Assembly: GCA_030156895.1 (NCBI GenBank)
Contig: JASGLP010000001.1
Location: forward strand, 1 to 64,000
Reading direction: 5' to 3'
Source of the DNA: Eubacteriaceae bacterium
Lineage (GTDB): Bacteria; Bacillota; Clostridia; Eubacteriales; Eubacteriaceae
Length of the DNA stretch: 64,000 bases
Below, in pieces: positions 7,605 to 63,295 of the stretch. A model generated the notes under the pieces. The model was not told the DNA's origin. It did no database searches and saw only the letters and a list, made by a program, of their open reading frames with translations. The translations under genes were made by a program, and so were the position numbers. Position 1 is the first letter of the stretch, and each line of letters starts with the position of its first letter.

Positions 7605-7673
7605 TGATTCAAATAAACTAATTGGATAAGTACTATTTATGTAAATAGCAAATATTGGTCTTGGAGGGGAAAT

Positions 7674-47596: not shown

Positions 47597-47638
47597 GGGA
47601 TTCTCCTTAGATTAAGTTCAATATCTTAAAAGTTTATT

Positions 47639-47769
47639 GCACCGACAATTGGCTTTTAAGCTGTCTGCCTCGGGGCGAACAGTTGCTGGGAAATGGATTT
47701 AATTAGCACTTTCAAATTGGGCAACTGTACGAATCCGCGTGCAGACAGCGAAATCCAATTGGTCGGTGC
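47639..47769 (+). repeat. Structured intergenic repeat, copy 1
   Basis: A 131-bp element bounded by GCACCGACAATTGG and CCAATTGGTCGGTGC. Inside are helix P2 (GTCTGC/GCAGAC) and P3 (ACAGTTGC/GCAACTGT), with conserved loop sequence CTCGGGGCGA and ACGAATCCGC. P2 differs from copies 2-4 but stays paired. This copy sits between divergent promoters and has no flanking terminator duplication. Confidence 0.9.
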
Positions 47770-47912
47770 CGCGCTTATTTTCAAAAAGATGATACTTACT
47801 ATCATTTTGGGTAGTAAGTGATAAAAAAGTGCATTCTTGTATTTAAGAAAATTATTGGTAAAATGATATCATAAGAAAAAAAGAAATTCAAGCTAAAACA
47901 AAGGAGGGTAAT

Positions 47913-48422
47913 ATGAGTAAATTTAAAAATATTAGTCCGGATCAATTTGATTTCAGTCCCTTTCGGCTGATCGGCAAGGAATGGATGCTGATTACGGCCG
48001 AAAGTCAAGGCAAGGTCAACAGCATGACCGCATCCTGGGGCGGATTGGGTGTAATGTGGGGCAAAAATGTAGCCTATGTAGTCATCCGAAAGAGCCGTTT
48101 TACAAAAGAACTGGTTGACGCGGCAGAGGGCTTTTCGTTGACCTTTTTCGATCATCAGAAATATCAGAAAATGTTAGGCTATATGGGCAGTGTTTCCGGC
48201 CGCGATGAAGACAAAGTTGAAACATCCGGATTAACGGTAGAACATCAAAACGGCGTCCCATATTTTGCCGAGGCCAAGACGGTATTGCTTTGTAAAAAAC
48301 TTTGCCGACAATATATTTCGCCGGAAAGTTTTATTGATGATTCGATTGATGGACAGTGGTATGGCGACTCGGATTATCATGATCTGTATATTGTTGAAGT
48401 AGAAGAAATTCTACAGGCTTAA
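47913..48422 (+). CDS. Flavin reductase-like FMN-binding protein
   Basis: A 169-aa split-barrel protein: SPFRLIGKEWMLITAESQGK, SMTASWGGLGVMWGKNVAYV and VIRKSRFTKELVDAAEGFSL match the flavin reductase-like domain that binds FMN. It probably reduces flavin or handles electron transfer to an unidentified acceptor. It starts behind AAGGAGGG and precedes a nitroreductase gene. HxlR lies upstream on the other strand. Confidence 0.88.
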   Translation: MSKFKNISPDQFDFSPFRLIGKEWMLITAESQGKVNSMTASWGGLGVMWGKNVAYVVIRKSRFTKELVDAAEGFSLTFFDHQKYQKMLGYMGSVSGRDEDKVETSGLTVEHQNGVPYFAEAKTVLLCKKLCRQYISPESFIDDSIDGQWYGDSDYHDLYIVEVEEILQA

Positions 48423-48487
48423 TCAATTAGGACGGCAAGCAATGTCGTGAAAAATGAGTTAGAAACTCAATATTATGGAGGAAAAAA

Positions 48488-48982
48488 ATGAACGCAATTT
48501 TTAATCGAACCAGTGTCAGAAAGTATCAGAACAAAGAAGTGGAAGCAGAAAAAATCGAGCTGCTGTTAAAAGCGGCAATGGCGGCACCGTCAGCCGGTAA
48601 TCAGCAGCCTTGGGAATTCTACGTGGTGAAAGACAAAGAAACCTTAAAAGCCCTGGCTGATGCCAGCCCATACGGCGGCTGTATTGCTGGTGCGCCAATG
48701 GCTATTGTACCAGTTTACAGAACTGAACTTATGATGCCGGAGTTTGCTCATATTGATATGAGCGCGGCGACCCAGAATATTCTGCTGGAAGTGGTTGAAC
48801 AGGGCCTGGGGGCGGTCTGGATTGGCATCGCCCCACTAAAAGATCGCATGGACAAAGTCGCTGAAATTTTATCAGTACCGGACAGTCTGGTGCCCTATGC
48901 AGTGATTCCAATTGGCTATCCGGTAGCTCAAGCTAACCCCCATGATCGATATGACGAAAGCCGGGTTCACTACGAAAAATAG
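48488..48982 (+). CDS. Nitroreductase-family FMN oxidoreductase
   Basis: A 164-aa protein, short for the family, with FNRTSVRKYQNKEVEAEKIE (FMN contact Arg), AAMAAPSAGNQQPWEFYVVK and GLGAVWIGIAPLKDRMDKVA. Such enzymes use NAD(P)H and FMN to reduce nitro, quinone or other acceptors. It is 65 nt after the flavin reductase gene, probably in the same transcript, which ends at the terminator downstream of repeat copy 2. Confidence 0.92.
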   Translation: MNAIFNRTSVRKYQNKEVEAEKIELLLKAAMAAPSAGNQQPWEFYVVKDKETLKALADASPYGGCIAGAPMAIVPVYRTELMMPEFAHIDMSAATQNILLEVVEQGLGAVWIGIAPLKDRMDKVAEILSVPDSLVPYAVIPIGYPVAQANPHDRYDESRVHYEK

Positions 48983-48998
48983 ATAAAGACTTAGAAAA

Positions 48999-49226
48999 GC
49001 GCCTGTAAATCGGGGGTCAGACTGAAGACAAAGTTAATATTGAATACCTGAGCACCGACAATTGGCTTTTCAGTTGTCCGCCTCGGGGCGAACAGTTGCT
49101 GGAAATCATCTATAATTAGCGATTTCAAATTGGGCAACTGTACGAATCCGCGCGCGGACTACGAAATCCAATTGGTCGGTGCGGGTTTGTCTACACACTA
49201 GCGCCTGTAAATCAGGCGTTTTTTTG
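48999..49226 (+). terminator. Duplicated terminator hairpin flanking repeat copy 2
   Basis: GCGCCTGTAAATC occurs at 48999-49011 and again at 49201-49213, 202 bp apart. The downstream copy completes a GCGCCTG/CAGGCG terminator with T7 (49201-49226), while the upstream copy continues GGGGGTCAG and has lost its T run. Repeat copy 2 lies between them. Confidence 0.75.
49052..49182 (+). repeat. Structured intergenic repeat, copy 2
   Basis: 131 bp with the same outer stem as copy 1, P2 as GTCCGC/GCGGAC, invariant P3 ACAGTTGC/GCAACTGT and an apical stem GAAATC/GATTTC. An extra outer pairing, AGACAAA (from 49026) with TTTGTCT (to 49192), extends the fold in this copy. Confidence 0.92.
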
Positions 49227-49274
49227 TTGAAAAATTTAAAATCGGGTATATATCTCGCAAAAGGGGGGAGCGCA

Positions 49275-50189
49275 ATGATCAAAGTAAATCATGCCACATT
49301 AACTTATCGTTCGGGCAAAGGGGTTTTCGATCTGGATTTTAAAATTGGTCAGGGGCAAGTCATGGGCTACTTAGGACCCAATGGCGCCGGAAAAACAACC
49401 ACCATCCGTCAGCTGACCGGTTTTATGAAATCTGATAGTGGCTCTTGTTCGATTAATGGCCTGGACTGTTTTCACAAGGCACCGGCCATCAATCAGATGA
49501 TGGGTTACATTCCGGGTGAGATTGCCTTTCTGGAGGGGATGCAGGGGGAGGAATATCTTAAATATATTCGTCAGGTCAGGGGACTCAGAAACGACCATCT
49601 GCAGAAAAAACTAATTGATATGTTTGAGTTTTCACCCAAAGGCAGTATTCGCAAGTTTTCCAAGGGGATGAAACAGAAGCTGGGAATCGTTGCAGCCTTT
49701 ATGCATGATCCTGATGTCTTGCTTCTTGATGAACCCACCAGTGGCCTGGATCCTCTGATGCAAAATCGTTTTATTGACCTGATTCTGGAAGAAAAGAAAC
49801 GGGGCAAAACCATTCTTTTATCCAGTCATATGTTTGAAGAGGTGGAGCGAACTTGCGACCGGGTGATTATCATTAAAGATGGCCGAATTGTCGCCAAGTC
49901 GGATATCAAGAGCTTAAAAAGCGCCCAGCGAAAGGTCTACCGCCTGAAAGTCAAAAATCCTCTGGTAGCGATGCAGAGTCTGCAGGCGCATGGCTTTGAG
50001 GTCAAACATCTGGAACAGGTGATTGATGTGACGATCCCGGGGGATCAGATTGGGGCTTTTGTCGCTGTTTTACCACAGCTTGAAGTAACTGACCTGGATG
50101 TCAAATCATTAAGCTTAGAAGAAATTTTTTTGCATTTTTACCAAAAGGAGGATGATGATGAAAAAGCCATTGAGTCTGACCCTGTTTAA
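49275..50189 (+). CDS. ABC transporter ATP-binding protein
   Basis: A 304-aa ATPase from ATG 49275 behind GGGGGGAGCGCA. Walker A GPNGAGKTTT, Q-loop region, signature RKFSKGMKQKLGIV, Walker B VLLLDEPTSGLDP and the switch His in LLSSHMFEE are all present. The ~80-residue C-terminal extension is that of drug/peptide or Na+ exporters of the CcmA/NatA type. It overlaps the permease gene by ~32 nt, so they act together. Confidence 0.94.
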   Translation: MIKVNHATLTYRSGKGVFDLDFKIGQGQVMGYLGPNGAGKTTTIRQLTGFMKSDSGSCSINGLDCFHKAPAINQMMGYIPGEIAFLEGMQGEEYLKYIRQVRGLRNDHLQKKLIDMFEFSPKGSIRKFSKGMKQKLGIVAAFMHDPDVLLLDEPTSGLDPLMQNRFIDLILEEKKRGKTILLSSHMFEEVERTCDRVIIIKDGRIVAKSDIKSLKSAQRKVYRLKVKNPLVAMQSLQAHGFEVKHLEQVIDVTIPGDQIGAFVAVLPQLEVTDLDVKSLSLEEIFLHFYQKEDDDEKAIESDPV

Positions 50190-50967
50190 ATTGACTCTCA
50201 AGAAAAACTGGAAGCTGTTTGTGATTTTTTTTGGCGTCCTGACCATGTATTCGTCGGTTATGATTTCCATGTATGATCCAGAAAATATGCAGGCCATTAC
50301 GGCTATGACGGAGATGTTTCCGCCAAAACTGATGGAAGCCATGAACTTTTCATCCGGTTTTTCTGATCTTACCGGTTATTTGGCCAGCTGGCTCTACGGA
50401 CTTTTAATGATTGGCTTTCCCCTTGTTTACAGTATCATTCTGGGCAACGGGCTGGTGGCCAGAGAGGTGGATTCAGGTTCGATCGTCTGTCTTTTAACCA
50501 CGCCGGACTCCCGGGTCACCATTATTTTAACCAAAGCTTTGTATGCGGTTTTATCAATGGTTGTCCTGATGGCCAGTATTTGTATTTTGAATATGGTCAT
50601 CAGTCAGGCCGTTTTTCCGGAATATTTTGATTCGGATGCTTTTCTTCAGCTCAATGTGACAGTGGGCTTGGCCAATATTCTGGCGCTTTCAATTTCCTTC
50701 TTCTGCTCTAGTCTCTTTAACACCACAAGATACTCCCTGGCTTTTGGTGCGGGAATCCCAGTTATGTTCATTCTTTTTAACATGCTGGGTGGAGCGTCAG
50801 ACCAGGCTGAGATTTTAAAAAAGATATCAATATACGGCTGGTATGATCCTCTGGAGATTGTTAGTGGTGCCGAAACAGCTCAGATTAATCTGATTTACAT
50901 CGGTCTGATTGCTGCTTTGTTGATTGCGTCAGTGCTGATTTTTAAGAATAAGAGGCTGCCGGTTTGA
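50158..50967 (+). CDS. ABC-2-type permease
   Basis: About 269 aa from ATG 50158, 7 nt after AAGGAG (the ATGs at 50152 and 50155 are also in frame). Six hydrophobic segments and an N-terminal cytoplasmic helix (LTLFKLTLKKNWKLFVIFFG) match ABC-2 exporters; VAREVDSGSIVCLLTTP is the conserved loop. It pairs with the ATPase encoded upstream. The substrate is unknown, possibly a lipid, antibiotic or peptide. Confidence 0.9.
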   Translation: MKKPLSLTLFKLTLKKNWKLFVIFFGVLTMYSSVMISMYDPENMQAITAMTEMFPPKLMEAMNFSSGFSDLTGYLASWLYGLLMIGFPLVYSIILGNGLVAREVDSGSIVCLLTTPDSRVTIILTKALYAVLSMVVLMASICILNMVISQAVFPEYFDSDAFLQLNVTVGLANILALSISFFCSSLFNTTRYSLAFGAGIPVMFILFNMLGGASDQAEILKKISIYGWYDPLEIVSGAETAQINLIYIGLIAALLIASVLIFKNKRLPV

Positions 50968-51003
50968 GCAAAATTGTGAATTGTTCATGTGCAAAATATT
51001 AAA

Positions 51004-51037
51004 AAAGCTGTTACGACACAAAAATCGTAGCAGCTTT
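51004..51037. terminator. Bidirectional terminator
   Basis: AAAGCTGTTACGA pairs with TCGTAGCAGCTTT around an A-rich loop, between the ABC permease gene and the convergent hydrogenase-maturation operon. Confidence 0.85.
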
Positions 51038-51043
51038 AATATA

Positions 51044-52366
51044 TTATTTGCTTTCATTCTCCAGTGCATTTCTGACCGCCTCTGGCTGACCATCATTTTC
51101 TTCAATAATCCGGCTGACCTTGTCGTAACCCAGGCTTTGGGTGTAGCCGGTGGCAAAAGCATAAGACCGGTTCAGCCATTTAAGACACTGGTCACGGTCG
51201 GCCTCAATCAGATCGATGCATTTTTCGCGAAAAATACTAACAGATCGCGTCAGCAGTGACAGGCTTTGCAGCAAAGAATCGGCAATCAGTGGCAGAAAGG
51301 CATTTAGCTCAAATTCGCCGTGAGCGGCAGCCAAAGTGATGGCTGTATCGTTGGCGATGGCCTTCATGGCAACCTGCATAACCATCTCGGGAATGACCGG
51401 ATTAACCTTACCCGGCATAATAGTGCTGCCGGTCTGCAGGGCTGATAGCTTAATCTCACCGAATCCGCCATAAGGGCCGGAATTCATCAGTCGCAGGTCA
51501 TTGGCGATTTTCATCAGATTGACTGCCAGGGCCTTTAAAAGGCCGGAAACCTCAACAAAGACATCATTATTTTGGGTGATATCCATGGGATATTCAGCTG
51601 CAGCCAGGCCGATGCCGGTTATTTCACGCAATTCTTCGATTACGCCAAAGCGGTATTTGCGTTCAGCATTGTTGGCAAGGCCAACCGCTGTGCCGCCAAG
51701 ATTAACCTGTCGCAGCCGTTCTTCAACCTTGTAGAGGCGCCAACGATCGCGGGCGATGGCCTGGGCAAAAGCCCCGAACTCTGAACCTAAAGTGATGGGC
51801 ACGGCATCCATCAGCTCAGTCCGCCCCAGTTTTTTGATGTCGTCAAAGGCATTTTCTTTTTTTTGCAGGGATTCCTGCAGTTTTGCGCAAGCCTCACTCA
51901 GATCACGCAGCTTTTCAATGGCGGCAATGCGCAGAGCCGTTGGATAAACATCATTTGTAGACTGGCCGCGGTTGACATCATCAAGCGGATGGATAATTTC
52001 ATAAGCACCACAGGGCTTGCCAAGGTTTTTAAGTGCCAGATTGGCTAGCACCTCATTGACATTCATATTGGTTGATGTACCGGCACCACCCTGGAGGGCA
52101 TCAGTTAGAAAGGCATCACTAACCTGATTGGCCAGAACCTGATTACAAGCTTTTTCAATCGCCTGATAGATTTCGGATCTGTCTGTGTCAAGCTTTACAA
52201 AGGTACGAGCCGCTGCTTTTTTAACCTTAATGATGGCACAAATCAGTTGCCAGTCGGTTTTTTTGTAATCAAGGTCAAAGTTTTCCTGAGCCCGCAGACT
52301 CTGCAGGCCATAAAGGGCGTCTTCCGGCAGGAGACGCTCCCCTAGCTTGTCTTTTTCGGTGCGCAT
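51044..52366 (-). CDS. aspA: Aspartate ammonia-lyase/fumarase-superfamily enzyme in the hyd operon
   Basis: A 440-aa protein of the aspartase/fumarase C superfamily: LQGGAGTSTNMNVNEVLANL, HPLDDVNRGQSTNDVYPTAL and the signature loop GSTIMPGKVNPVIPEMVMQV. It would release ammonia from aspartate (giving fumarate), although substrate choice is not certain from sequence. It is the last gene of the operon with hydE-hydG-hydF, 2 nt from hydF. AspA-like genes recur beside hydrogenase maturases, suggesting it supplies ammonia for the bridging amine of the H-cluster; this is inference. Confidence 0.88.
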   Translation of the reverse strand: MRTEKDKLGERLLPEDALYGLQSLRAQENFDLDYKKTDWQLICAIIKVKKAAARTFVKLDTDRSEIYQAIEKACNQVLANQVSDAFLTDALQGGAGTSTNMNVNEVLANLALKNLGKPCGAYEIIHPLDDVNRGQSTNDVYPTALRIAAIEKLRDLSEACAKLQESLQKKENAFDDIKKLGRTELMDAVPITLGSEFGAFAQAIARDRWRLYKVEERLRQVNLGGTAVGLANNAERKYRFGVIEELREITGIGLAAAEYPMDITQNNDVFVEVSGLLKALAVNLMKIANDLRLMNSGPYGGFGEIKLSALQTGSTIMPGKVNPVIPEMVMQVAMKAIANDTAITLAAAHGEFELNAFLPLIADSLLQSLSLLTRSVSIFREKCIDLIEADRDQCLKWLNRSYAFATGYTQSLGYDKVSRIIEENDGQPEAVRNALENESK

Positions 52367-52368
52367 GA

Positions 52369-53574
52369 TTAATCCTCCATTTCGGCCAGTATATGTGGAA
52401 AGGCTTCCAGGCTGCGTTTTAAGATGCCCTGCATATAAGCGATAATGGTGCCGTAGTTGGTGATGGGTACCTTTTGATCAAGGGCGCACTTGGTGCGGTA
52501 TCGGACTTCTCGTTCATTTAACATACAGCCGCCACAGTGAACAACCAGTTTATATTCGGTCAGATCATCGGGGTATTCAACGCCTGATTTAAAGACAAAC
52601 TGCAGGTCTTTGCCGGTATAGTTTTTAATCCAGCGGGGCAGTTTTACGGTGCCGATATCGTCGCACTGGCGATGGTGGGTGCAGCCCTCGGCAATCAGCA
52701 CTTTGTCACCGTCAACCAGTTTATCCAGTGTCGCTGCGCCTTTCACCGCCGCAGCCAGCAAGCCTTTGTAGCGGGCAAAAAGGATGGAAAAGGAGGTTAA
52801 GAGAATATCTTTGGGCGTATCGGCTGAAACTTTGGCAAATACCTGGCTGTCAGTAATTACAAGCTTGGGCTTGCGGCCCAGGTCTTCAAGCGTTTGTTTC
52901 AGTTCAAATTCCTTGACCATAATAGCTGTTGCATCTGCTTCTAAAATATCTCGAATCGTCTGCTGCTGGGGTAGAATCAGGCGGCCTTTGGGGGCGGCTT
53001 TATCGATGGGGATAACCAGAACGACGAAGTCCGAAGGGGCCAGCAGGTCGGCCACGATTTTAAGTTTCGGTTCTTCGCTGGCGGCCAGGCTGGCGATCTT
53101 TTCTTTTAAAGCTTCGATATTAGTTTTTTCAGTCGCACTGACCCAGATTTCATTTGCCCCTGTCGCGACTGGTTGGCTTAGCAGGTCGGATTTGTTATAA
53201 ACAATCAGATGGGCAATCTCTTTTTCTTGAAAGAGGTGAATCAGCTGCTGATCTTCATCAGTCAGGCCGCGCACTGAATCGACGATCAACACAGCAACAT
53301 CGGTTTTATTCAGCACTTGTCTGGTTTTTTTAACCCGAAGTTGACCCAGGGCACCCTCATCGTCGATTCCTGGGGTATCGATGATCATCACCGGACCCAG
53401 AGGTAAAAGCTCCATGGCTTTATAGACCGGATCGGTGGTGGTGCCTTTCACATCAGAAACAACTGCCAGATCCTGTCCGGTCACAGCGTTGACAACGCTT
53501 GATTTTCCGGCATTTCTTTTGCCAAAAAAGGCAATATGTACGCGATCGGCTGATGGTGTATCATTCAGTCCCAT
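52369..53574 (-). CDS. hydF: [FeFe]-hydrogenase maturation GTPase HydF
   Basis: A 401-aa protein. G domain: P-loop GKRNAGKSS (18-26), GTTTDPV switch, DTPGIDDEG, NKSD. C-terminal Fe-S domain: CTHHRQCDD and VVHCGGCMLN supply the C-x-H ... H-C-x2-C cluster ligands. HydF is the scaffold on which the diiron precursor of the H-cluster is assembled before transfer to the hydrogenase. Full length for the family. Confidence 0.97.
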   Translation of the reverse strand: MGLNDTPSADRVHIAFFGKRNAGKSSVVNAVTGQDLAVVSDVKGTTTDPVYKAMELLPLGPVMIIDTPGIDDEGALGQLRVKKTRQVLNKTDVAVLIVDSVRGLTDEDQQLIHLFQEKEIAHLIVYNKSDLLSQPVATGANEIWVSATEKTNIEALKEKIASLAASEEPKLKIVADLLAPSDFVVLVIPIDKAAPKGRLILPQQQTIRDILEADATAIMVKEFELKQTLEDLGRKPKLVITDSQVFAKVSADTPKDILLTSFSILFARYKGLLAAAVKGAATLDKLVDGDKVLIAEGCTHHRQCDDIGTVKLPRWIKNYTGKDLQFVFKSGVEYPDDLTEYKLVVHCGGCMLNEREVRYRTKCALDQKVPITNYGTIIAYMQGILKRSLEAFPHILAEMED

Positions 53575-53594
53575 TGTGCTTACTCACTTTCTAA

Positions 53595-55013
53595 TTAAAA
53601 TCTGAAGTCCCGGCTGCCATTTTCGATATTTGCCAGGTTATCCAGGGCGATCTGTCGGACTTTGTCCTTGGGGATATTGCCGATTTCGGCTTTAATTAAG
53701 GACTCGCCAACACTTTTAGTATCTGGACTGGCGTAATCTTCAAGATATTCTTTCAAGGTCATCAGAGCGTTGGGATGACAACAGTTTTGAATCTGGCCGC
53801 TTTTGCAGAGGCTCATAAAACGGTCACCGGTTCGGCCCTCGCGGTAGCAGGCGGTACAGAAGCTGGGGATATAGTCGTTCTCCATCAGCCATTTAACAAT
53901 TTCGTTAAGGGTTCTTTTATCGCTGACATCAAACTGTTCCGAGCTTTCGTCTTCCGGTTCCGGTTCGCAGTAACCGCCAACACTTGTTCGCGATCCACCG
54001 CTGATCTGGGAGACACCATAATGGATGACTCTTTCCCGACATTCCTTGCTTTCGCGGGTGGAAATAATCATTCCAGTATAAGGTACGGCAAGGCGGATAC
54101 AGGCAACCAGTTTAGCGAAAGTATCGTCATCAATCCCATTATCAAAGACATCTGGATCAATGTCATCGGCGCGCTTGATGCGGGGGACGCTGATGGTATG
54201 TGGTCCCACACCAAAGGCAGCTTCCAGATGCTCAGCGTGCATTAAAAGGCCAGCGAACTCGTAACGGTATAGCTCCAGTCCAAACAGCACACCCAAGCCC
54301 ACATCGTCGATACCGCCCTCCATGGCGCGATCCATGGCTTCGGTATGGTAGGCATAATCATGTTTAGGGCCGGTGGGATGCAGTTTTTCGTAACTTTCCT
54401 TGTGGTAGGTTTCCTGGAAAAGGATGTAGGTGCCAATGCCGGCATCTTTGAGCTTGCGATAATTTTCCACAGTGGTGGCCGCAATATTGACGTTGACGCG
54501 ACGGATGGCACCATTTTTATGTTTAATCGAGTAAATGGTATCAATACATTCCAGGATATATTCAATGGGATTGTTAATGGGGTCTTCGCCGGCTTCCAGA
54601 GCCAGCCGCTTGTGTCCCATATCCTGGAGCGCGATGACTTCCCGTTTAATTTCTTCCTGGGTCAGTTTTTTTCGGGCAATGTGTTTGTTTTTGGCATGAT
54701 AGGGGCAGTAAACACAGCCATTGATGCAGTAATTGGATAAGTAGAGGGGGGCAAAAAGAACAATTCGGTTACCGTAGAAATCTTTTTTAATCTGTTCGGC
54801 CAGGGCAAAAATTTCCTGATTTTTGTCTTCCAGTGTACAATCAAGCAGGATAGCTGCTTCGCGGTGGCTAAGGCCTTTTCGAAGTCTGGCTTTAGCTAAA
54901 ATTTCGTCGATTAGCTTAGCATTGTTTTTATTGGCTTCAGCGTATTCCAGGCTTTCTAGAATCTCGCTGTGATCAATAAATTCGTCGGATTTCAGTGATT
55001 TTGGATTATACAT
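53595..55013 (-). CDS. hydG: [FeFe]-hydrogenase maturase HydG (radical SAM tyrosine lyase)
   Basis: A 472-aa radical SAM enzyme with the cluster motif CINGCVYC (Cys96/100/103) and a C-terminal FCTACYREGRTGDRFMSLCK region that binds the auxiliary cluster. HydG splits tyrosine to give CO and cyanide and builds the Fe(CO)2(CN) synthon for the H-cluster. It is related to ThiH, but the C-terminal CxxC...C extension and the hydE/hydF neighbours identify it. Full length. Confidence 0.97.
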   Translation of the reverse strand: MYNPKSLKSDEFIDHSEILESLEYAEANKNNAKLIDEILAKARLRKGLSHREAAILLDCTLEDKNQEIFALAEQIKKDFYGNRIVLFAPLYLSNYCINGCVYCPYHAKNKHIARKKLTQEEIKREVIALQDMGHKRLALEAGEDPINNPIEYILECIDTIYSIKHKNGAIRRVNVNIAATTVENYRKLKDAGIGTYILFQETYHKESYEKLHPTGPKHDYAYHTEAMDRAMEGGIDDVGLGVLFGLELYRYEFAGLLMHAEHLEAAFGVGPHTISVPRIKRADDIDPDVFDNGIDDDTFAKLVACIRLAVPYTGMIISTRESKECRERVIHYGVSQISGGSRTSVGGYCEPEPEDESSEQFDVSDKRTLNEIVKWLMENDYIPSFCTACYREGRTGDRFMSLCKSGQIQNCCHPNALMTLKEYLEDYASPDTKSVGESLIKAEIGNIPKDKVRQIALDNLANIENGSRDFRF

Positions 55014-55067
55014 TTTGTTGGTCCTTTCTTTGGGGTCAGATTAATCTTTCCCGTCAGTTAAATTTTA

Positions 55068-56111: not shown

Positions 56112-56184
56112 GGTTGTAGTCTTTCATAATAATTTTAGTTTGCCAGTTTGAAAGGATATAACAGGCTTTGGTCAGACAGGGATC

Positions 56185-56448
56185 TCATTCGCTTATCGAC
56201 GAGACAACATGAGAATAGGCTGTTTTGGCACTGACATCTTTTAATTTCCCGATTTTACCGGCTAATGCGCTGATAACATCCTGGGGTGCATCGATAGCGA
56301 TGCTGATGATGTTGATCTTCCTTTCCCGGTAAGGAATCCCCATCCGGCCGATGATATATGGGCCATAGTCGTGCAGGACTGCGTTGAGTTTTTCAACAGC
56401 AGCTGGGTCTTCAATAATAATACCGATTACGGCGACGCGCGTTTCCAT
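56185..56448 (-). CDS. TM1266-family iron-only hydrogenase system regulator
   Basis: An 87-aa protein from ATG 56448 behind AGGAGGATTATT. The upstream extension lies across a terminator hairpin. The sequence METRVAVIGIIIEDPAAVEK, LHDYGPYIIGRMGIPYRERK and ISIAIDAPQDVISALAGKIG matches the small ferredoxin-like (ACT/NikR-C-like) family encoded with hydEFG in anaerobes, with a presumed regulatory role. It is the first gene of the maturation operon. Confidence 0.9.
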   Translation of the reverse strand: METRVAVIGIIIEDPAAVEKLNAVLHDYGPYIIGRMGIPYRERKINIISIAIDAPQDVISALAGKIGKLKDVSAKTAYSHVVSSISE

Positions 56449-56474
56449 AATAATCCTCCTTTTAAAATTTAGAC

Positions 56475-56497
56475 AAAAAAAGCACCTCGAAAGGCGC
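56475..56497 (-). terminator. Terminator (possible attenuator) just before the hyd maturation operon
   Basis: On the minus strand GCGCCT-TTCG-AGGTGC is followed directly by T7 (56475-56481). It lies only ~26 nt upstream of the first start codon of the operon, on the coding strand, so it can only act as a leader attenuator or as the terminator of an unseen short upstream RNA. Confidence 0.75.
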
Positions 56498-56956
56498 AAA
56501 AATCCGCAAAATTGCATGGACTCATTTGTCTTTCACTCAGAAAAATCTTTGTGTCAGTATGAATTCCTGTTATTGATTTGATCGGCGGAAGCTTCCAGCG
56601 ATGTAATCGATAAAAATATAGCACAGATTTTTGTAAAAGGCAAGAGCTTTAAGGTGGATATTTTTGCATGGCGATTTGAAGGGCTTAAATTGCACTTTTT
56701 TAGATCACTTGCAATCAGTAAGAAGACTTGGGATTTTAAAAAGGCCAGACGCTTGGCTACAGAGGATAGAAAAGAAAAGATTAAGAAATAGTTAAAAATT
56801 GGTGTCAAATAGAAAATTTTGTCAAGTGAAGGTAATAATTCATCGTTTACATAGTCAAAATTGTATAAAGTTAACGATTTTTTAATAAAGTTAAGCTTTT
56901 ATGCGTGATTAATCTATGGTATACTCTAAAAAACTTTTTGAAAGGGAGTGCCAGTT
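56498..56956. other. Intergenic region upstream of the hyd operon
   Basis: There is no gene I trust. An 84-codon minus frame (56554-56808) lacks an RBS and family. Minus-strand TTGACA-like boxes near 56810-56830 could start the hyd leader RNA. The palindrome GCAAAATTGC at 56506-56515 lies next to the attenuator hairpin. The plus promoter of the next small gene lies at the right end. Confidence 0.4.
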
Positions 56957-57130
56957 ATGGATAGAATTAATATCATCACCAGCAGCGATGCCCGAGAATT
57001 TGCCCGTTTAATCAGTGAGGCCTGTGAAAAAGGTGGTCGCCTGGTGGGAGGGATAAAATCAGTACCCAAAAGTCAGGAAGATCAGTATGATTATGTAACC
57101 TTTGTCAGCTATGATCAGACATTGGTTTAA
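56957..57130 (+). CDS. Small protein (57 aa), DUF1737-like, unknown function
   Basis: Starts at ATG 56957, 9 nt after AAAGGGAG (the GTG at 56948 is too close). The sequence MDRINIITSSDAREFARLIS, then GGRLVGGIKSVPKSQEDQYD and YVTFVSYDQTLV, has the alpha-helix/beta-hairpin layout of short DUF1737-like proteins. The assignment is tentative. It is monocistronic, with a terminator at 57165-57204. Confidence 0.65.
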   Translation: MDRINIITSSDAREFARLISEACEKGGRLVGGIKSVPKSQEDQYDYVTFVSYDQTLV

Positions 57131-57164
57131 GGTCGGGGTAAAAGAAAGCTTAATAATTGAAGTT

Positions 57165-57204
57165 AAAAGTGGGTCTGCTATTGTGAAATCAGACTCGCTT
57201 TTTT
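57165..57204 (+). terminator. Intrinsic terminator after the DUF1737-like gene
   Basis: AAAAGTGGGTCTG pairs with CAGACTCGCTTTTTT with one wobble or mismatch, ending in T6. Confidence 0.8.
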
Positions 57205-57391
57205 GTGCAAAAGAATCATTTTAAGGTCTACAGTTTACTGAAAGCGGAGCAAGGCGTTTTTTTATTAGTGATCCTTTTGAAAATGATTAAAACAGCTGAT
57301 AGGATGGCAACAATTTATTGCAATTTCTACTAATAATTTTTCATGGAATATGTTAAAATGCTATTAATTTCAGATGCGAAGGGGGGATATT

Positions 57392-58300
57392 ATGAATCGT
57401 TTGGATCTGGAAGTTATCAAACCGTTAGTTGGCGAAAATGTTAAGGGAGAAGTCTTTGACAAGATGGATTACCATGTCAGTGATAAATTTGGCGTTTTTG
57501 TGCCTGAATCCGGCTGCTGTTTTGAACAGGCTCGGGAAAACCATGCTCACCCAGCTTTTTCATTTATAGTTTTTTCAGACCCGGAAGAATCTTTTTTTGA
57601 AGAAACAATTGATCTGCCCAGCAATCATTACTTAGGGGCGCTGATCGGCCCGAATGTTCCGCATAAGGAACTCGTCGAAGATGATTTTACTAAAGGTCTG
57701 GTGGTCTTTATTGAGCAGGAATTATTTGCAAACTGTTATCACTCCATTGCCAAACGGCAGTTTTCGGTCTACCACGGCTTTGAACTCTTTCCAATTCATG
57801 AAAACGTCGTCACTGAAATCAGTCGCTTTATGGAGGAACAGACCAAGTGTGTCCCTCCAAGGATGAAAGAATTGCTGGGAGAATCGATTACCCTGCAACT
57901 GATTCGCTCATACGAAAAAGAGGATGTTTTTCCTAAACCGGTCATTACTGTTTTTGACGTAGACGGAATACTTGATTATATGCAACAGAATTTAGGAAAG
58001 CCGATCTATATGCATGAGCTGGCTGAAAAAGCTGGGGTGTCAAAAGATCATTTTAATCGCTGGTTTAAACGTCAGACCGGAAAAACCCCGCTGGACTGCT
58101 TGATTCAAATTCGGCTTAAGGAGGCAAAACGACTTTTAACTGAGACTGGGACATCGATCACAGAAATTGCCAGAACTTGCGGATTTGGTAACATCGGTCA
58201 TTTTTCCGCCGCTTTCAAAGGGCATTTTAAAATGACACCCACCGCCTTTCGCAGAAAGCATTATCGCGAAAACCTCAATGATCTATCACTAAACGGCTGA
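57392..58300 (+). CDS. AraC-family transcriptional regulator
   Basis: A 302-aa protein from ATG 57392 behind AAGGGGGG. It has an N-terminal AraC/cupin-like sensory domain (~1-190) and two C-terminal helix-turn-helix motifs (LGKPIYMHELAEKAGVSKDH, NRWFKRQTGKTPLDCL; and GTSITEIARTCGFGNIGHFS). Its stop codon lies inside the hairpin CGGCTGACTTGTTCAGCC that is duplicated around repeat copy 3. The target is unknown. Confidence 0.93.
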   Translation: MNRLDLEVIKPLVGENVKGEVFDKMDYHVSDKFGVFVPESGCCFEQARENHAHPAFSFIVFSDPEESFFEETIDLPSNHYLGALIGPNVPHKELVEDDFTKGLVVFIEQELFANCYHSIAKRQFSVYHGFELFPIHENVVTEISRFMEEQTKCVPPRMKELLGESITLQLIRSYEKEDVFPKPVITVFDVDGILDYMQQNLGKPIYMHELAEKAGVSKDHFNRWFKRQTGKTPLDCLIQIRLKEAKRLLTETGTSITEIARTCGFGNIGHFSAAFKGHFKMTPTAFRRKHYRENLNDLSLNG

Positions 58301-58344
58301 CTTGTTCAGCCCCAAACTGAAGACAAAGTATTTTTAAGCACTTG

Positions 58345-58475
58345 AGCACCGACAATTGGCTTTTCAGTTGTCCGCCTCGGGGCGAACAGTTGCTGGAAAT
58401 CGCTTATAACTAGTGATTTCAAATTGGGCAACTGTACGAATCCGCGCGCGGACTACGAAATCCAATTGGTCGGTG
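58345..58475 (+). repeat. Structured intergenic repeat, copy 3
   Basis: 131 bp, nearly identical to copy 2: outer stem GCACCGACAATTGG/CCAATTGGTCGGTGC, P2 GTCCGC/GCGGAC, P3 ACAGTTGC/GCAACTGT, apical GAAATC/GATTTC with a changed loop. It lies between two exact copies of an 18-bp hairpin (58294-58311 and 58495-58512). Confidence 0.92.
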
Positions 58476-58494
58476 CGGGGTTTATCTAGAGACT

Positions 58495-58520
58495 GCGGCT
58501 GACTTGTTCAGCCTTTTTTT
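58495..58520 (+). terminator. Terminator, downstream copy of a duplicated hairpin
   Basis: CGGCTGACTTGTTCAGCC (58495-58512) followed by T7. The identical 18 bases occur at 58294-58311, where they overlap the AraC stop codon and are followed by CCAA instead of T7. Spacing is 201 bp. Confidence 0.85.
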
Positions 58521-58572
58521 GATTGAGAAAAAGAGAAAAGGGTAGTAAATGCATAAAAGAGGAGGAGATGTC

Positions 58573-58851
58573 ATGGAACGCATACACAGTGCACATAATA
58601 AGTTCTATATCGGAGCCTTTGAGGAAGATCCGGTGGCCTTTGTCACCTATCATCAAGAAGGCGAAAAGTTATTGGTAATCGAACATGTTTATGTTTCCCG
58701 GGAACTTAGGGAGCAGGGGATTGGTAAACTCCTGGTGCAGAAAATGGTGGAATATGCCCGCGAAAATGCTAAAAAGCTTAACAGTACCTGCTCCTATGCC
58801 GGTGCAGTGCTATCCCGGGAACTGGAGTATCAGGATGTCTATTCAGAATAG
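58573..58851 (+). CDS. Small GNAT-family N-acetyltransferase
   Basis: A 92-aa protein from ATG 58573 behind GAGGAGG. The short GNAT form (YjdJ/GCN5-like) has EEDPVAFVTYHQEGEKLLVI, HVYVSRELREQGIGKLLVQK (acetyl-CoA loop) and a terminal CSYAGAVLSRELEYQDVYSE. These single-domain proteins may acetylate small amines or proteins. It is monocistronic, ending in a good terminator. Confidence 0.88.
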   Translation: MERIHSAHNKFYIGAFEEDPVAFVTYHQEGEKLLVIEHVYVSRELREQGIGKLLVQKMVEYARENAKKLNSTCSYAGAVLSRELEYQDVYSE

Positions 58852-58865
58852 GGAATTAAATTGTA

Positions 58866-58920
58866 GAAAAAACAGGCTCTCGTCATGCAAGTGACTTTTG
58901 CATGGGAGTGCCTGTTTTTT
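58866..58920. terminator. Bidirectional terminator between GNAT and EcsC genes
   Basis: AAAAAACAGGC pairs with GCCTGTTTTTT. An inner stem ATGCAA/TTGCAT sits within the loop. Confidence 0.87.
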
Positions 58921-58930
58921 GTCTGCGACT

Positions 58931-59731
58931 TTATTCCTGTAGTTTCTTCTCAAGGTAACGCTTCTGATACTTGAGCTCGGCATAGACACTGATTTTGTTA
59001 AGAATGAAAGGATTTGCCAGGCCGCCAATGATCCCGACGATGGGCAGTCCCTGAATAAATTTAGTGGTTAAGAGGATGGTGGAAAGCAACGCTGATGTGT
59101 CTTCCATATAATCGGTCAGATCAAGAGCAACGGCGTCGTAGGCATCGATTTGCTGACCGAGTTTGATGATCTTTTTATCATATTCTGCCTGCCTGGCTCC
59201 TTTGGTCATGGCACCACTTATCAACAGCAGCATATAAGATTTTTCAGAGTCAGACTTATCATGATAGCCGAAATGACCGGCAATTTCCGATAGTGTCCGG
59301 AGAATCATGGCAATGAAAATGGGGATATCGGGAATACCAATGCCCAGAAGTCCCAGGGCACCACCTTCAAGAGCTGAAAGAGACTGATTAAGCAGGGCTC
59401 CCTGACCAGCCGAGCGTTTCATTTTCCGAAAGTGCCTTTGGCTGGTGTGATTTTCAACCGCTTCATTGTTTTGCTTGTGCTGCGCTTTTATTTTATTGTC
59501 GTTGATTGTTTTTTCAATATAGGGCAGCCCTTTATCAAAGACCAGGGTGAAGCTTTTTAAAAAAGCGGTTTTTAGACTTGCCTCTAATTTAGGCGGGATT
59601 TTTTCTTCGACTTTTTCAAGCAGTGGATCGATGTTCTCTTGCAATAGTCGGTTTTCCTGACGACTCTTTATCCGATCTTCCCGTTTTTCAATCTTTCTTA
59701 TTTCCCTGATTATTTTTTTATTATTTTTCAT
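58931..59731 (-). CDS. EcsC-family protein
   Basis: About 266 aa if started at ATG 59731. An upstream ATG at 59794 is in frame but has no better signal. The N-terminus is highly charged and coiled (KKIIREIRKIEKREDRIKSR). The middle carries the EcsC pattern GALLNQSLSALEGGALGLLG followed by GIPDIPIFIAMILRTLSEIA with hydrophobic glycine-rich helices, and a second hydrophobic stretch QGLPIVGIIGGLANPFILNK. EcsC proteins are membrane-associated and of unclear function. Confidence 0.88.
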   Translation of the reverse strand: MKNNKKIIREIRKIEKREDRIKSRQENRLLQENIDPLLEKVEEKIPPKLEASLKTAFLKSFTLVFDKGLPYIEKTINDNKIKAQHKQNNEAVENHTSQRHFRKMKRSAGQGALLNQSLSALEGGALGLLGIGIPDIPIFIAMILRTLSEIAGHFGYHDKSDSEKSYMLLLISGAMTKGARQAEYDKKIIKLGQQIDAYDAVALDLTDYMEDTSALLSTILLTTKFIQGLPIVGIIGGLANPFILNKISVYAELKYQKRYLEKKLQE

Positions 59732-59930
59732 CTTGCGTCCATTTCTTTTGAACAAAGTATAATCTAAAAGTTTTAAATTTTTGTTAAAGCACAAGAAGGA
59801 AAAAATATTTCTTTACATACCTCGAAATATTAGGTATTATTACATAGAAGAACAAGGTAAATAATGAACAGAAAAGCAAATTATCGGTGCTCAGGTGTGA
59901 TGCGAATGAGAAGAAATAAAGGAGGAAATG

Positions 59931-60290
59931 ATGAATATTTCGAAAGATTTGATGGCGGCTTCGGCCATTCCTTTGATTTTGGCAATCCTAAAAAAAGAGG
60001 ATTCCTATGGCTATCAGATGATTAAAGAGGTCAAAGTTTTGTCGGCAAATGATCTCCAATGGTCAGAAGGCATGCTTTATCCGGTTCTGCACCGGCTTGA
60101 GGAAAAAGAGTTAATCGAATCCTACTGGCAGACTCAAACCGGTAAACGAAAACGCAAGTATTATCGGATTACTCAAAATGGTCTGGCTGAACTGGAAGCC
60201 CAGAAAAAACAGTGGCAAGTGATTCAGCAAGCGCTTAACAAGACGGATGGCTGGTCGATTTTAACGGAGGTGAAGGCATGTTTGATTTAG
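59931..60290 (+). CDS. PadR-family transcriptional regulator
   Basis: A 119-aa winged-helix protein from ATG 59931 behind GGAGGAAATG. The pattern ILKKEDSYGYQMIKEVKVLS, EGMLYPVLHRLEEKELIESY and RKRKYYRITQNGLAELEAQK is PadR. Its end overlaps the next gene by 13 nt. Such pairs typically sense membrane-active compounds and control the partner membrane protein, here the 447-aa product. Confidence 0.93.
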   Translation: MNISKDLMAASAIPLILAILKKEDSYGYQMIKEVKVLSANDLQWSEGMLYPVLHRLEEKELIESYWQTQTGKRKRKYYRITQNGLAELEAQKKQWQVIQQALNKTDGWSILTEVKACLI

Positions 60291-61621
60291 AAAAACAGAT
60301 TGCTGAATGGCGGGATTTTTTGCAAAAAAAAGGAAAAGTATCTGATTCTCATTTGTTGGAGATGGAATCTCATTTGCGCGATGAAATAGAAGATCTACAA
60401 ACCGCCGACTTATCAGAAGAAGAAGCCTTTCTGATTGCGGTTAAACGTTTTGGTAATCTCCATGAGATATCCCGGGAATATCAGAAAGTGAACACCGATC
60501 AGCTCTGGAAGCAATTGCTTGTAAGTCCGGATGACGCACTGACACGAGATGATAATAAAAAACTAATTGGTCTGGTGGTGCTTTTCTCAGTCATGGCCGG
60601 CACCTTAATGAAGCTGCCGGAGTGGTTGGGGATTGCAGCAGATGACTTGTTCTTCCTGAAAAATTTCAGCTTTTTTATCCTGCCTTTTGTCGGTTTGTTT
60701 TTCCTGCTGAAAAACCGAATTGTCAATAATAAAATATGGGGCTTGCTGGGAATTTATGTGGTGCTGATTTTTCCTGTCAATCTCTATCCTTTTATTGAAC
60801 CAAAGGATACGGCATTTTTGATGGCCTTGCATCTGCCGCTTTTTTTCTGGCTGATTACTGGCGTTTTCTATATGGGTCAGGAATGGAAAAGCAGTCGGGA
60901 GCGGATGAATTTTGTCCGTTTTACCGGCGAAGCCTTTATTTACGGAACCTTGATAAGCTGCGGCCTGGCAGTTTTATCGGTGTTTATTATAGCGATTTTT
61001 CAGGCCATTGATCTTGATGCCGGATTTTTCGTGGAGAATTTTCTGATCTATTATGGCATGAGTGGGGCGGTGATGGTCACCGTTTATTTAGTTGAAACCA
61101 AGAAAAGTATGGTCGAAAATTTTGCCCCGGTGCTGGCAAAGATCTTTTCACCTTTTTTTCTGCTTGCGATTATCGTTTTCTTGTTTACGATGCTTATCAC
61201 TGGCAGGAGTCCTTTTATGGATCGAAATTATCTGATTGCTGTCGATTTTATGTTAATGATGGTTCTGGCTTTGGTGCTTTACGTGATTTCGGCCAGAGAT
61301 CAGGCAGCGCCGGCAAATTTCTTTGATTATTTGAATCTGGCCTTGATTTTAACCGCCCTTTTGATTGATGGCATTGCCCTGTCAGCCATCGTTTTTCGTC
61401 TCAGCGCCTATGGAATCACACCCAACAAAATGGCGGCCTTAGGCGAAAATGTTGCCATGCTTTTTAATTTATTGGGGCTGGCTTATTATTATTTGCGCTT
61501 TATGCTGAAAAAGGCTTCTTTTTCACAATTAGTTAAATTTCAAACCGGATATTTTAATTATTATTTTATCTGGTTTGGATTTGTCGCTTTGGTTTTTCCG
61601 ATTCTGTTCCAATTCAAATAA
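60278..61621 (+). CDS. Membrane protein with permease-prefix (DUF1700-like) domain
   Basis: A 447-aa protein. Residues ~1-75 form a soluble helical permease-prefix domain (LEKQIAEWRDFLQKKGKVSD; EEEAFLIAVKRFGNLHEISR); the rest has about ten hydrophobic helices (LIGLVVLFSVMAGTL; GLFFLLKNRI; SQLVKFQTGYFNYYFIWFGF). The family is commonly encoded after PadR regulators. The function is not established; a stress-responsive membrane protein is likely. Confidence 0.8.
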   Translation: MFDLEKQIAEWRDFLQKKGKVSDSHLLEMESHLRDEIEDLQTADLSEEEAFLIAVKRFGNLHEISREYQKVNTDQLWKQLLVSPDDALTRDDNKKLIGLVVLFSVMAGTLMKLPEWLGIAADDLFFLKNFSFFILPFVGLFFLLKNRIVNNKIWGLLGIYVVLIFPVNLYPFIEPKDTAFLMALHLPLFFWLITGVFYMGQEWKSSRERMNFVRFTGEAFIYGTLISCGLAVLSVFIIAIFQAIDLDAGFFVENFLIYYGMSGAVMVTVYLVETKKSMVENFAPVLAKIFSPFFLLAIIVFLFTMLITGRSPFMDRNYLIAVDFMLMMVLALVLYVISARDQAAPANFFDYLNLALILTALLIDGIALSAIVFRLSAYGITPNKMAALGENVAMLFNLLGLAYYYLRFMLKKASFSQLVKFQTGYFNYYFIWFGFVALVFPILFQFK

Positions 61622-61893
61622 AAAAGTGATAGGAAAAGTAAGTCGTGTGAGAATAAGGATCCATAGCTTAATCATTTAGTTTGTTTGGTAATGAAATGGG
61701 AAAATATATGATAAGATCTTTTTTAAATTCAGAAAGAATATTTTTGTCATGGTGGATGATTCTGCAAACGCTTTAAAGAAAAGCTTTCTTGACAACTTTC
61801 TGATAAATTGATTATGATTGTAAAGATTGACAAGCAAAAGTTAGTCCTGATTACAATTAATCAGGTGGTGTCATATTAAGTTAGGAGAAAATA
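61622..61893 (+). other. Promoter-containing intergenic region before malic enzyme
   Basis: 272 nt without a gene. Possible -35 elements (TTGACA-like, near 61789 and 61828) lie in the last ~110 nt. No terminator hairpin was recognised after the membrane-protein gene. Confidence 0.4.
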
Positions 61894-63072
61894 ATGGGAA
61901 TTCAGGAAGAAGCCTTACAAAAGCATGAAGAATGGCGGGGAAAATTAAGCATTGACAGCAAGGTGCCAGTGGAAAATGAAAAAGATCTGTCCCTGGCTTA
62001 TACACCGGGGGTGGCAGAACCCTGTCGGATGATTGAAAAAAATAAGACCGATGTTTATAAGTATACGGGAAAAGGCAACACTGTAGCCATTGTGACGGAC
62101 GGATCAGCGGTTTTAGGACTGGGTGATATTGGTCCGGAGGCCGGCCTGCCTGTAATGGAAGGAAAAGCGGTGCTCTTTAAGGAATTTGGTGGGGTGGATG
62201 CTTTCCCCATTTGCGTGGATTCCAAAGATGTAGATGATATTGTAAGAACCGTTTCGCTGATAGCGCCAGGATTTGGCGGCATTAACCTTGAAGACATCGC
62301 CTCTCCACGTTGTGCTGAAATCGAACGAAAATTAAAAGAGACCCTTGATATTCCGGTTTTTCATGATGATCAGCATGGCACGGCAGTGGTAGTCATTGCC
62401 GCCCTTTTAAATGCCTTGAAAGTGGTAAAAAAACAATGGAATCAGGTAACGGTTGCCATGAGTGGGGCTGGCGCAGCGGGTTCGGCAATTGCCCGGATGC
62501 TGCTTTCCATGGGCGTAAAAGATATTATCGTCTGCAGCAGCAAGGGGATTTTGTCGGCAGACGAAAGTTATGGCAACTGGGTTCACCAGGAAATTGCCCA
62601 GATGACCAATCAAAACCGGCTTAAAGGGAGCTTGGCTGATGCCATGAAGGGAGCGGATGTTTTTATCGGCGTTTCAGCACCGGGGATTGTGACCGCCGAT
62701 ATGGTTGCATCGATGGCTGCGGATGCCATTGTCCTGCCCATGGCCAATCCCGACCCGGAGATCGATCCGGCTTTAGCGCAAGCAGCCGGTGCTCGGCTTG
62801 TTGGCACTGGACGGTCTGATTATCCTAACCAGATCAATAATGTGCTGGCTTTTCCGGGGATTTTCAGAGGCGCCCTGGATGCCCGGGCATCCGATATCAA
62901 CGAAGCCATGAAAATTGCTGCGGCCAAAGCCATTGCTGGTTTAATTAAAGAAGAGGAACTAAAAGAAGACTATATTATTGTGCCGGCGTTCGATCAACGG
63001 GTTGGAAAAGCCGTAGCGGCTGCTGTTTATCAGGCGGCCATTGATTCTGGCCTTTCACACTTGAGTCAATAA
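61894..63072 (+). CDS. NAD(P)-dependent malic enzyme
   Basis: A 392-aa protein of the short bacterial malic enzyme class: LSLAYTPGVAEPCRMIEKNK, DGSAVLGLGDIGPEAGLPVM, VLFKEFGGVDAFPICVD, the Rossmann loop AMSGAGAAGSAIARMLLSMG and MANPDPEIDP. It converts malate to pyruvate and CO2 with NAD(P)+. It starts behind AGGAGAAAATA. Repeat copy 4 lies just after its stop. An Lrp regulator is convergent downstream. Confidence 0.95.
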   Translation: MGIQEEALQKHEEWRGKLSIDSKVPVENEKDLSLAYTPGVAEPCRMIEKNKTDVYKYTGKGNTVAIVTDGSAVLGLGDIGPEAGLPVMEGKAVLFKEFGGVDAFPICVDSKDVDDIVRTVSLIAPGFGGINLEDIASPRCAEIERKLKETLDIPVFHDDQHGTAVVVIAALLNALKVVKKQWNQVTVAMSGAGAAGSAIARMLLSMGVKDIIVCSSKGILSADESYGNWVHQEIAQMTNQNRLKGSLADAMKGADVFIGVSAPGIVTADMVASMAADAIVLPMANPDPEIDPALAQAAGARLVGTGRSDYPNQINNVLAFPGIFRGALDARASDINEAMKIAAAKAIAGLIKEEELKEDYIIVPAFDQRVGKAVAAAVYQAAIDSGLSHLSQ

Positions 63073-63126
63073 AAAGCGACTAGCGGTCGCATTTAAACTG
63101 ATAACTAAGTTGTTAAGATTACCTGA

Positions 63127-63255
63127 GCACCGACAATTGGCTTTTCAGTTGGCTGCATCGGGGCGAACAGTTGCGCCAAAACCTTTATTATTAACATTTA
63201 AAATTGGGCAACTGTACGAAACCGCAGCAGCCTACGAAATCCAATTGGTCGGTGC
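63127..63255 (+). repeat. Structured intergenic repeat, copy 4 (most diverged)
   Basis: 129 bp with the same 14-15 nt outer arms and invariant P3 (ACAGTTGC/GCAACTGT). P2 reads GGCTGC/GCAGCC, again fully paired although changed on both strands relative to copies 1-3. The apical part has lost the GAAATC/GATTTC stem. Flanks start with AAGCGA at 63074 and 63275 (201 bp apart), and the right-hand one is followed by a T5 run. Confidence 0.9.
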
Positions 63256-63295
63256 GGGGTTTATCGATACACTAAAGCGATCGTCAGCTGCCTTT

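Follow-up and report, generated by a model that had tools for sequence, protein, structure and literature searches.

The first 64,000 nt of contig JASGLP010000001.1 (Eubacteriaceae bacterium, assembly GCA_030156895.1), which we call the window, contain four copies of a structured intergenic repeat between positions 47,639 and 63,255. We read this repeat as a family of miniature inverted-repeat transposable elements (MITEs) of the IS1182 type whose insertion duplicates stem-loops and whose fold is conserved and partly multi-armed. The copies are very probably non-autonomous elements that an IS1182-family DDE transposase, acting in trans, inserted at terminator stem-loops, with the stem-loop duplicated in the process. 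The host genus would be Acetobacterium, judging from matches equal to those in named records (for example L068 and L198). Of 40 stretches of named records that contain the core pattern of the repeat, 36 are labelled Acetobacterium (A. fimetarium, A. wieringae, A. woodii, A. bakii, A. dehalogenans, A. tundrae and Acetobacterium sp.), and the other 4 only Firmicutes or Bacillota. We therefore refer to it as the Acetobacterium repeat.

A repeat family that extends beyond the window

All four window copies sit within 1-2 nt of where a first-pass annotation of the window had placed them, on the plus strand and between long open reading frames (ORFs); the model bounds of their cores are 47637-47769, 49050-49182, 58344-58476 and 63125-63255. 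An alignment of the window copies shows the features that the annotation described: outer arms interrupted by a single bulge, an inner helix that does not vary, the loops TCGGGGCGA and ACGAA, and a middle helix in three versions (GTCTGC/GCAGAC, GTCCGC/GCGGAC and GGCTGC/GCAGCC). Each copy folds far better than its dinucleotide shuffles, with z values of -6.5 to -8.0 and none of 200 shuffles as good for any copy.

The length of ~130 nt given by the first-pass annotation fits the hairpin core, but is too short for the repeat unit. In 33 copies aligned with their flanks, conserved sequence continues past the hairpin on both sides, and the full unit runs from CAGACTGAAGACAAAGT to GTTTGTCTACACACTG, a length of ~184 bp. 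Its terminal inverted repeats are imperfect (CAGACTGAAGACAAAG versus CAGTGTGTAGACAAAC). Shorter forms of 85, 86 and 102 bp exist, as do longer ones. In two copies of 85-86 bp (L052 and L054), which resemble slippage deletions, most of the hairpin is gone near stretches of GGGG, but both ends and the flanking repeats are still there.

A covariance model, which the annotation had proposed as a check, was built from 45 chosen copies (alignment A2). It finds the repeat in at least 84 places in its own genome, a lower bound since scoring was limited to 84 candidates and these do not include window copy 4. The shared orientation and the spacing within 16 kb hold for the four window copies, but not for the family, which occurs on both strands and is not confined to this region. 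The model also matches all 19 genomes searched in the genus and 2 genomes of one neighbouring genus; it has no match in the other 19 genomes searched in the family or, under stricter filters, in 24 genomes from other families of the order. Subfamilies are amplified differently between species. The repeat is thus short, non-coding (its copies lie beside genes by crude ORF calls), numerous and bounded by terminal inverted repeats, as a MITE should be.

Duplicated stem-loops at the insertion sites

The DNA analysed from the genome of the window contains 88 distinct cores, of which 26 were left out for a missing end or flank and 62 were tested for target duplication. In 56 of the 62, the match between the two flanks exceeds the 99th percentile for shuffled pairings; the mean flank-match score is 16.1, against 5.1 for the shuffled pairings. 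The duplicated sequence differs by locus (GGCTGACTTGTTCAGCC at copy 3, GCCCATGAAATTCATGGGC at another copy). Over the 56 copies it has a median length of 21 bp (range 10-33), and it touches the element directly on the left in 50 and on the right in 43. Complete copies in other genomes behave similarly, with a duplication above control in 19 of 25.

Most of the targets are stem-loops. Counting outward from the element, a strong stem-loop begins no more than 3 nt away in 44 of the 62 flanks on the right and in 41 of the 62 on the left; among 1153 control windows, scored by the right-flank procedure, 3.1% have one. A T-run to the right (19 copies), an A-run to the left (16) or both (14) accompany 49 of the 56 duplications and give these sites a terminator-like character. 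With flanking ORFs called by a crude rule, both sides could be resolved for 51 of the 62 copies: 19 lie between convergent and 31 between co-directional ORFs, and only 1 is divergent, which places 50 of the 51 downstream of at least one gene.

The window copies and their flanks are laid out as follows.

47638-47769, plus strand: copy 1, hairpin core (145.2 bits by model R1)
48999-49017, no strand: copy 2, left target duplication GCGCCTGTAAATCGGGGGT
49018-49200, plus strand: copy 2, whole element (5' terminal repeat 49018-49034, core 49051-49182, 3' terminal repeat 49185-49200)
49201-49218, no strand: copy 2, right target duplication GCGCCTGTAAATCAGGCG, then seven T, terminator-like
58294-58311, no strand: copy 3, left target stem-loop CGGCTGACTTGTTCAGCC
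58313-58495, plus strand: copy 3, whole element (5' terminal repeat 58313-58329, core 58345-58475, 3' terminal repeat 58480-58495)
58496-58513, no strand: copy 3, right target stem-loop CGGCTGACTTGTTCAGCC, then seven T
63076-63090, no strand: copy 4, left stem-loop GCGACTAGCGGTCGC, read from the sequence
63094-63274, plus strand: copy 4, whole element (worn terminal repeats 63094-63110, 5 edits, and 63259-63274, 4 edits; core 63126-63255)

The terminal repeats are clear on copies 2 and 3 and worn on copy 4, which falls outside the 62 copies scored for duplication. To the right of copy 4, positions 63275-63292 read AAGCGATCGTCAGCTGCC, followed by five T, and are only partly similar to the left stem-loop. 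On copy 1, no terminal repeats were found with up to 5 edits. This copy lies upstream of a minus-strand ORF, and the orthologous spacer lacks it in three relatives (G012, G001 and G005).

Palindromic flanks can recombine, and local recombination that duplicated terminators or hairpins, or chance likeness of the flanks, might in principle mimic insertion. However, 56 of 62 flank pairs exceed the control with a sequence that is specific to the locus while the element between them is the same, copy 1 has an empty site in three relatives, and the amplification of subfamilies differs from species to species. The flank-duplication test and the empty site contradict an origin without mobility, and we consider it exceedingly improbable. 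The ends, the target duplications and the empty site instead support the mobile element that the first-pass annotation had offered as one of two options. It had spoken of a hairpin-recognized element; the hairpin recognized at insertion appears to be the target terminator, not the hairpin of the element itself.

Shared ends with IS1182-family insertion sequences

Three loci in the genus (L098, L100 and L101) hold insertion sequences of 1474-1488 bp with ends CAGACTGTCAAAGAAC and CAGACTGTCAAAAAAG. The latter is also the left end of the Acetobacterium repeat in other species, where 13 of 80 copies show it with at most 1 edit and 200 scrambles gave none. This set comprises 80 distinct copies from other genomes after copies with identical first 90 nt were merged, and some species may be represented by two records. 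L101 encodes an unbroken frame of 474 aa that matches the IS1182 transposase model NF033551 at 362.5 bits (cut-off 270), as well as PF13751, PF05598 and PF01609, and so supplies an IS1182 transposase with a DDE domain. L100 and L101 each lie between two copies of a palindrome, like the palindromic targets of the repeat. In addition, genome G009 carries a 73-aa PF13751 fragment (L124) near an end, CAGACTGTAGACAAAGT, that is one base off the repeat of our genome. While Rfam gave no match to the repeat, in line with the first-pass annotation, which had recognized none, its ends tie it to IS1182.

Another IS1182-family group in the genus (L099, L112 and L113) is ~2.1 kb long with a 584-aa frame. 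The inverted repeats of L112 reach beyond those of L099, perhaps through an inverted-repeat-replacing insertion as in IS1272.

The related IS1272 provides a potential explanation for the duplications. In the passages of PMC5678879 available to us, IS1272 chooses stem-loops as targets by structure and not by sequence, and its new insertions replaced the target stem-loop without duplication. The same source drew, in 2017, an alternative pathway in which the whole stem-loop would be duplicated if the joining took place at its 5' feet. As far as those passages go, the Acetobacterium repeat resembles IS1182/IS1272 in its inverted-repeat target, its terminal inverted repeats and the L101 transposase, an IS1182 equivalog; it differs in that it has no gene and duplicates the stem-loop in most copies, which fits the duplicating route.

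We propose that the terminal repeats are related to those of an insertion sequence that belongs to the IS1182 family and occurs in the same genus, and that a DDE transposase of this family, acting in trans, would select palindromic sites, with a preference for intrinsic-terminator stem-loops. The ends of the element would be attached to the outer feet of such a stem-loop, and gap repair would then reproduce it in full on both sides. The duplication would then track the hairpin, and its length and sequence would vary by locus. A target made up of A-run, hairpin and T-run would become A-run, hairpin, element, hairpin and T-run. Because one hairpin keeps the T-run and the other any A-run, termination from either side should persist, and the insertion would be nearly harmless.

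Several observations weigh against this model. PF13751 (IS1182-family) genes occur in 15 of the 19 genomes of the genus, but searches with PF13751 and with the L101 protein found no IS1182 transposase, the presumed partner, in our own draft genome, which is 85% complete. The frame of L101 is the sole unbroken one; L098 and L100 have open frames of only 206 and 142 aa at the match, and the palindromes flanking L098 are only partly alike. The ends of the repeat in our genome share the first 7 bp with those of the insertion sequences, and the rest is looser. In the other genomes, most of the 80 copies lack recognized ends: the 5' pattern was found in 33, the 3' pattern in 37, and both with flanks in 25. 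Six of the 62 copies in our genome show no duplication above control, and the same is true of 6 of the 25 in other genomes. Finally, the ends of copy 1 are unrecognizable and its position is upstream of an ORF rather than within a terminator, and for copy 2 the corresponding spacer of G014 holds a different terminator, so it is not a clean empty site.

High copy number and hairpin form would also suit a REP/BIME-type repeat moved by a RAYT (Y1) transposase via single-stranded DNA, and our genome does contain five Y1 (PF01797) matches, two of them ~300 aa long and none on the window contig (C50). However, no copy of the element was found around the Y1 matches (L031-L035, ~1.5 kb on each side), and the two long Y1 genes sit among a different repeat, TTGGTGgCAGGCACC. 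Y1 elements are not known to have terminal inverted repeats or to make duplications of 21 bp. We reject this origin as highly unlikely, as the element was not found by the Y1 matches and the long Y1 genes have a repeat of their own. The first-pass annotation had seen no transposase in the window, and whole-genome searches for PF13751, PF01797 and the L101 protein, the families covered, gave none there.

The long Y1 genes form a separate REP-like system. In L157 (G000:C46:21500-30228), two RAYT-like Y1 genes of ~300 aa lie on the minus strand at 878-1771 and 7649-8551, among eight copies of a 30-nt repeat that contains TTGGTGgCAGGCACC.

Conservation of the core fold

The central hairpin is conserved as a fold. 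Alignment A6 holds 54 chosen sequences (12 from our genome and 42 from others, excluding the ~100-nt copies and copies with inserts) and was built without reference to structure; 34 pairs were then predicted from it. Across these sequences and pairs, 97.6% of cells are paired, and 17 of the 34 pairs change on both sides, compared to a mean of 6.6 in shuffled alignments (none of 500 as high) and 2-7 for slid structures. Alignments A3, A4 and A5 contain antisense matches and were kept out of the counts. Selection on the fold, which the first-pass annotation had read from the window copies, is thus borne out by many more sequences.

Changes private to single copies were also counted. Among 57 own copies (5 of the 62 were dropped for lengths outside 176-187), the core has 25 private changes in 99 sites and the ends have 38 in 50, so that they are rarer in the core (p = 2e-5); the apical part is intermediate, with 19 in 34 sites. 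One-sided changes in the core give G.T more often than A.C (21 versus 7, p = 0.0125), whereas the ends are even (39 versus 35; core versus ends, p = 0.046). This lean is suggestive only, because the excess drops to 12 versus 5 when every pair contributes a single count. Of the 17 unpaired core positions that lie outside the apical part, 15 are 93-100% identical among the own copies.

No Rfam family corresponds to the core. At the gathering score, Rfam has no match in the window. In five diverse loci, none covers the core, although weak matches (E 1.8-5.8) touch that of L083, and none covers the four-armed or tandem forms in five loci. A permissive threshold adds scattered weak matches only, none over the core at the gathering score. 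The link to HEARO, omega-RNA or other IS200/605-linked RNAs that the first-pass annotation had wanted checked finds no backing here, as there is neither an Rfam match at the gathering score nor a copy near a Y1 match.

Larger forms and related modules

A module of ~85 nt, X (GGCAACGAGCCAA...TTGGCGACTGCC, then hairpin Z), occurs in 16 of the 19 genomes of the genus (L206-L235; in our genome L133, L147, L153 and L232). Of 31 classified sites, 16 are in the present element, 9 in a second, B-like family and 3 in tandem arrays; 3 lie elsewhere, of which L224 looks B-like. Many X-module tandem arrays have a spacing of 85-91 bp. The element together with the X module folds as a four-way junction, in which 14 of 64 predicted pairs show both-sided changes over 15 sequences, a count made without a shuffle control; 6 of 21 long forms, with modules X and Z in the apical part, were left out of this alignment. 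In related species the core often belongs to such a larger four-armed structure, and the 130-nt version may be a form without two of the four arms. However, the position of the X module within the element varies, which makes its insertion into the element as possible as loss from a four-armed ancestor.

The B-like family is a second family of four-armed hairpins (L211, L213, L214, L220, L221, L222, L224, L227, L230 and L235), with another outer stem, the same arm order and a GGCGAACAG/CTGTNCG motif. Arm 1 is inverted in some members, and five members fold at -97 to -106 kcal/mol per 300 nt. Shortly downstream of the B-like element of L211, at 1727-1906, lies a cobalamin riboswitch (RF00174, 87.7 bits, gathering score 31.5).

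Further hairpins occur at other loci. An extra small hairpin of the type ACC(C)TAGGGG(G)CAGACCC sits at a near-identical place in the middle helix in copies from several genomes (L047, L061, L168, L188, L196 and L208), and L065 has a similar piece in the opposite orientation. L067 carries long hairpins of another kind (291-382 and 612-714), with sub-threshold Rfam matches to plant and animal microRNA.

RNA or DNA role of the core

A covarying fold inside a MITE could serve in two ways, and we infer the role of the core, like the order in which its forms arose, from the patterns above. The core could be a functional structured RNA that the mobile element carries and that acts for the host or the element, an addition to the MITE model and a possibility of rather less than even odds. 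It would then be transcribed and take up the conserved hairpin or four-way junction. An RNA role is consistent with the covariation over 54 sequences, the four-armed form with its both-sided changes, the depletion of private changes in the core relative to the ends, the near-invariant unpaired positions and the G.T excess, which is confined to the core and points to the sense strand. The central hairpin is possibly conserved in one strand as RNA. However, the G.T excess shrinks on counting by pair, gene conversion among copies could also cut private core changes, and Rfam gives no match. Orientation is also unbiased, both to neighbouring genes (15 co-directional versus 16 opposed) and to the terminator (19 copies with the T-run alone, 16 with the A-run alone), which weighs against a plain role in 3' untranslated regions.

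Alternatively, the fold may serve transposition at the DNA level, for example as an extruded hairpin or cruciform, to which we assign the same minority chance. The entire element, ends included, folds as one long hairpin, most targets are likewise stem-loops, arm 1 occurs in both orientations among B-like elements, and there is no transcription bias. Yet selection at transposition alone does not predict the depletion of private changes in the core, and the insertion sequences of L098, L100 and L101 have no match to the core model. On this evidence we give the two roles equal weight.

In the strongest version of an RNA role, which we regard as doubtful, the core would be a previously undescribed multi-armed structured RNA of Acetobacterium, with an outer stem, up to three arms and conserved internal loops. 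It would be under selection in each copy and would have spread into terminators by means of IS1182-type ends, with the B-like elements as further carriers. If this is true, the RNA core would be transcribed in the 3' ends of many messages without harm to termination.

Comparison with known systems

Other mobile DNA that lands in terminators or palindromes includes group IIC introns and IS110-type elements. None of these is known to combine DDE-type terminal repeats with a long target duplication, and here they were covered only by the Rfam scans.

According to the passages of PMC10969869 that deal with MITEs, Correia, ERIC, RUP and QMITE elements share with the Acetobacterium repeat a short, non-coding, intergenic sequence, terminal inverted repeats, a strong fold and many copies. 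Inserts of element within element are described there for BOX, RUP and SPRITE. QMITE2 has direct repeats of 7-9 bp, in contrast to the stem-loop duplication seen here, and those passages describe no duplicated terminator stem-loop as target, no conserved internal loops and no four-armed forms. The portions of PMC3281130 and PMC6053426 available to us mention no hairpin targets for IS1182. Among the papers listed in literature searches, covered through titles and the openings of abstracts with most subscription papers beyond reach, we found no description of the Acetobacterium repeat.

Taken together, the many natural insertions of this repeat fit structure-directed DDE transposition with duplication of the target stem-loop. 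They suggest a route by which an element may reach dozens of copies in a compact genome, namely by inserting into terminators in such a way that one remains on either side. They also make it testable whether a conserved, covarying fold in a MITE serves transposition or acts as RNA.

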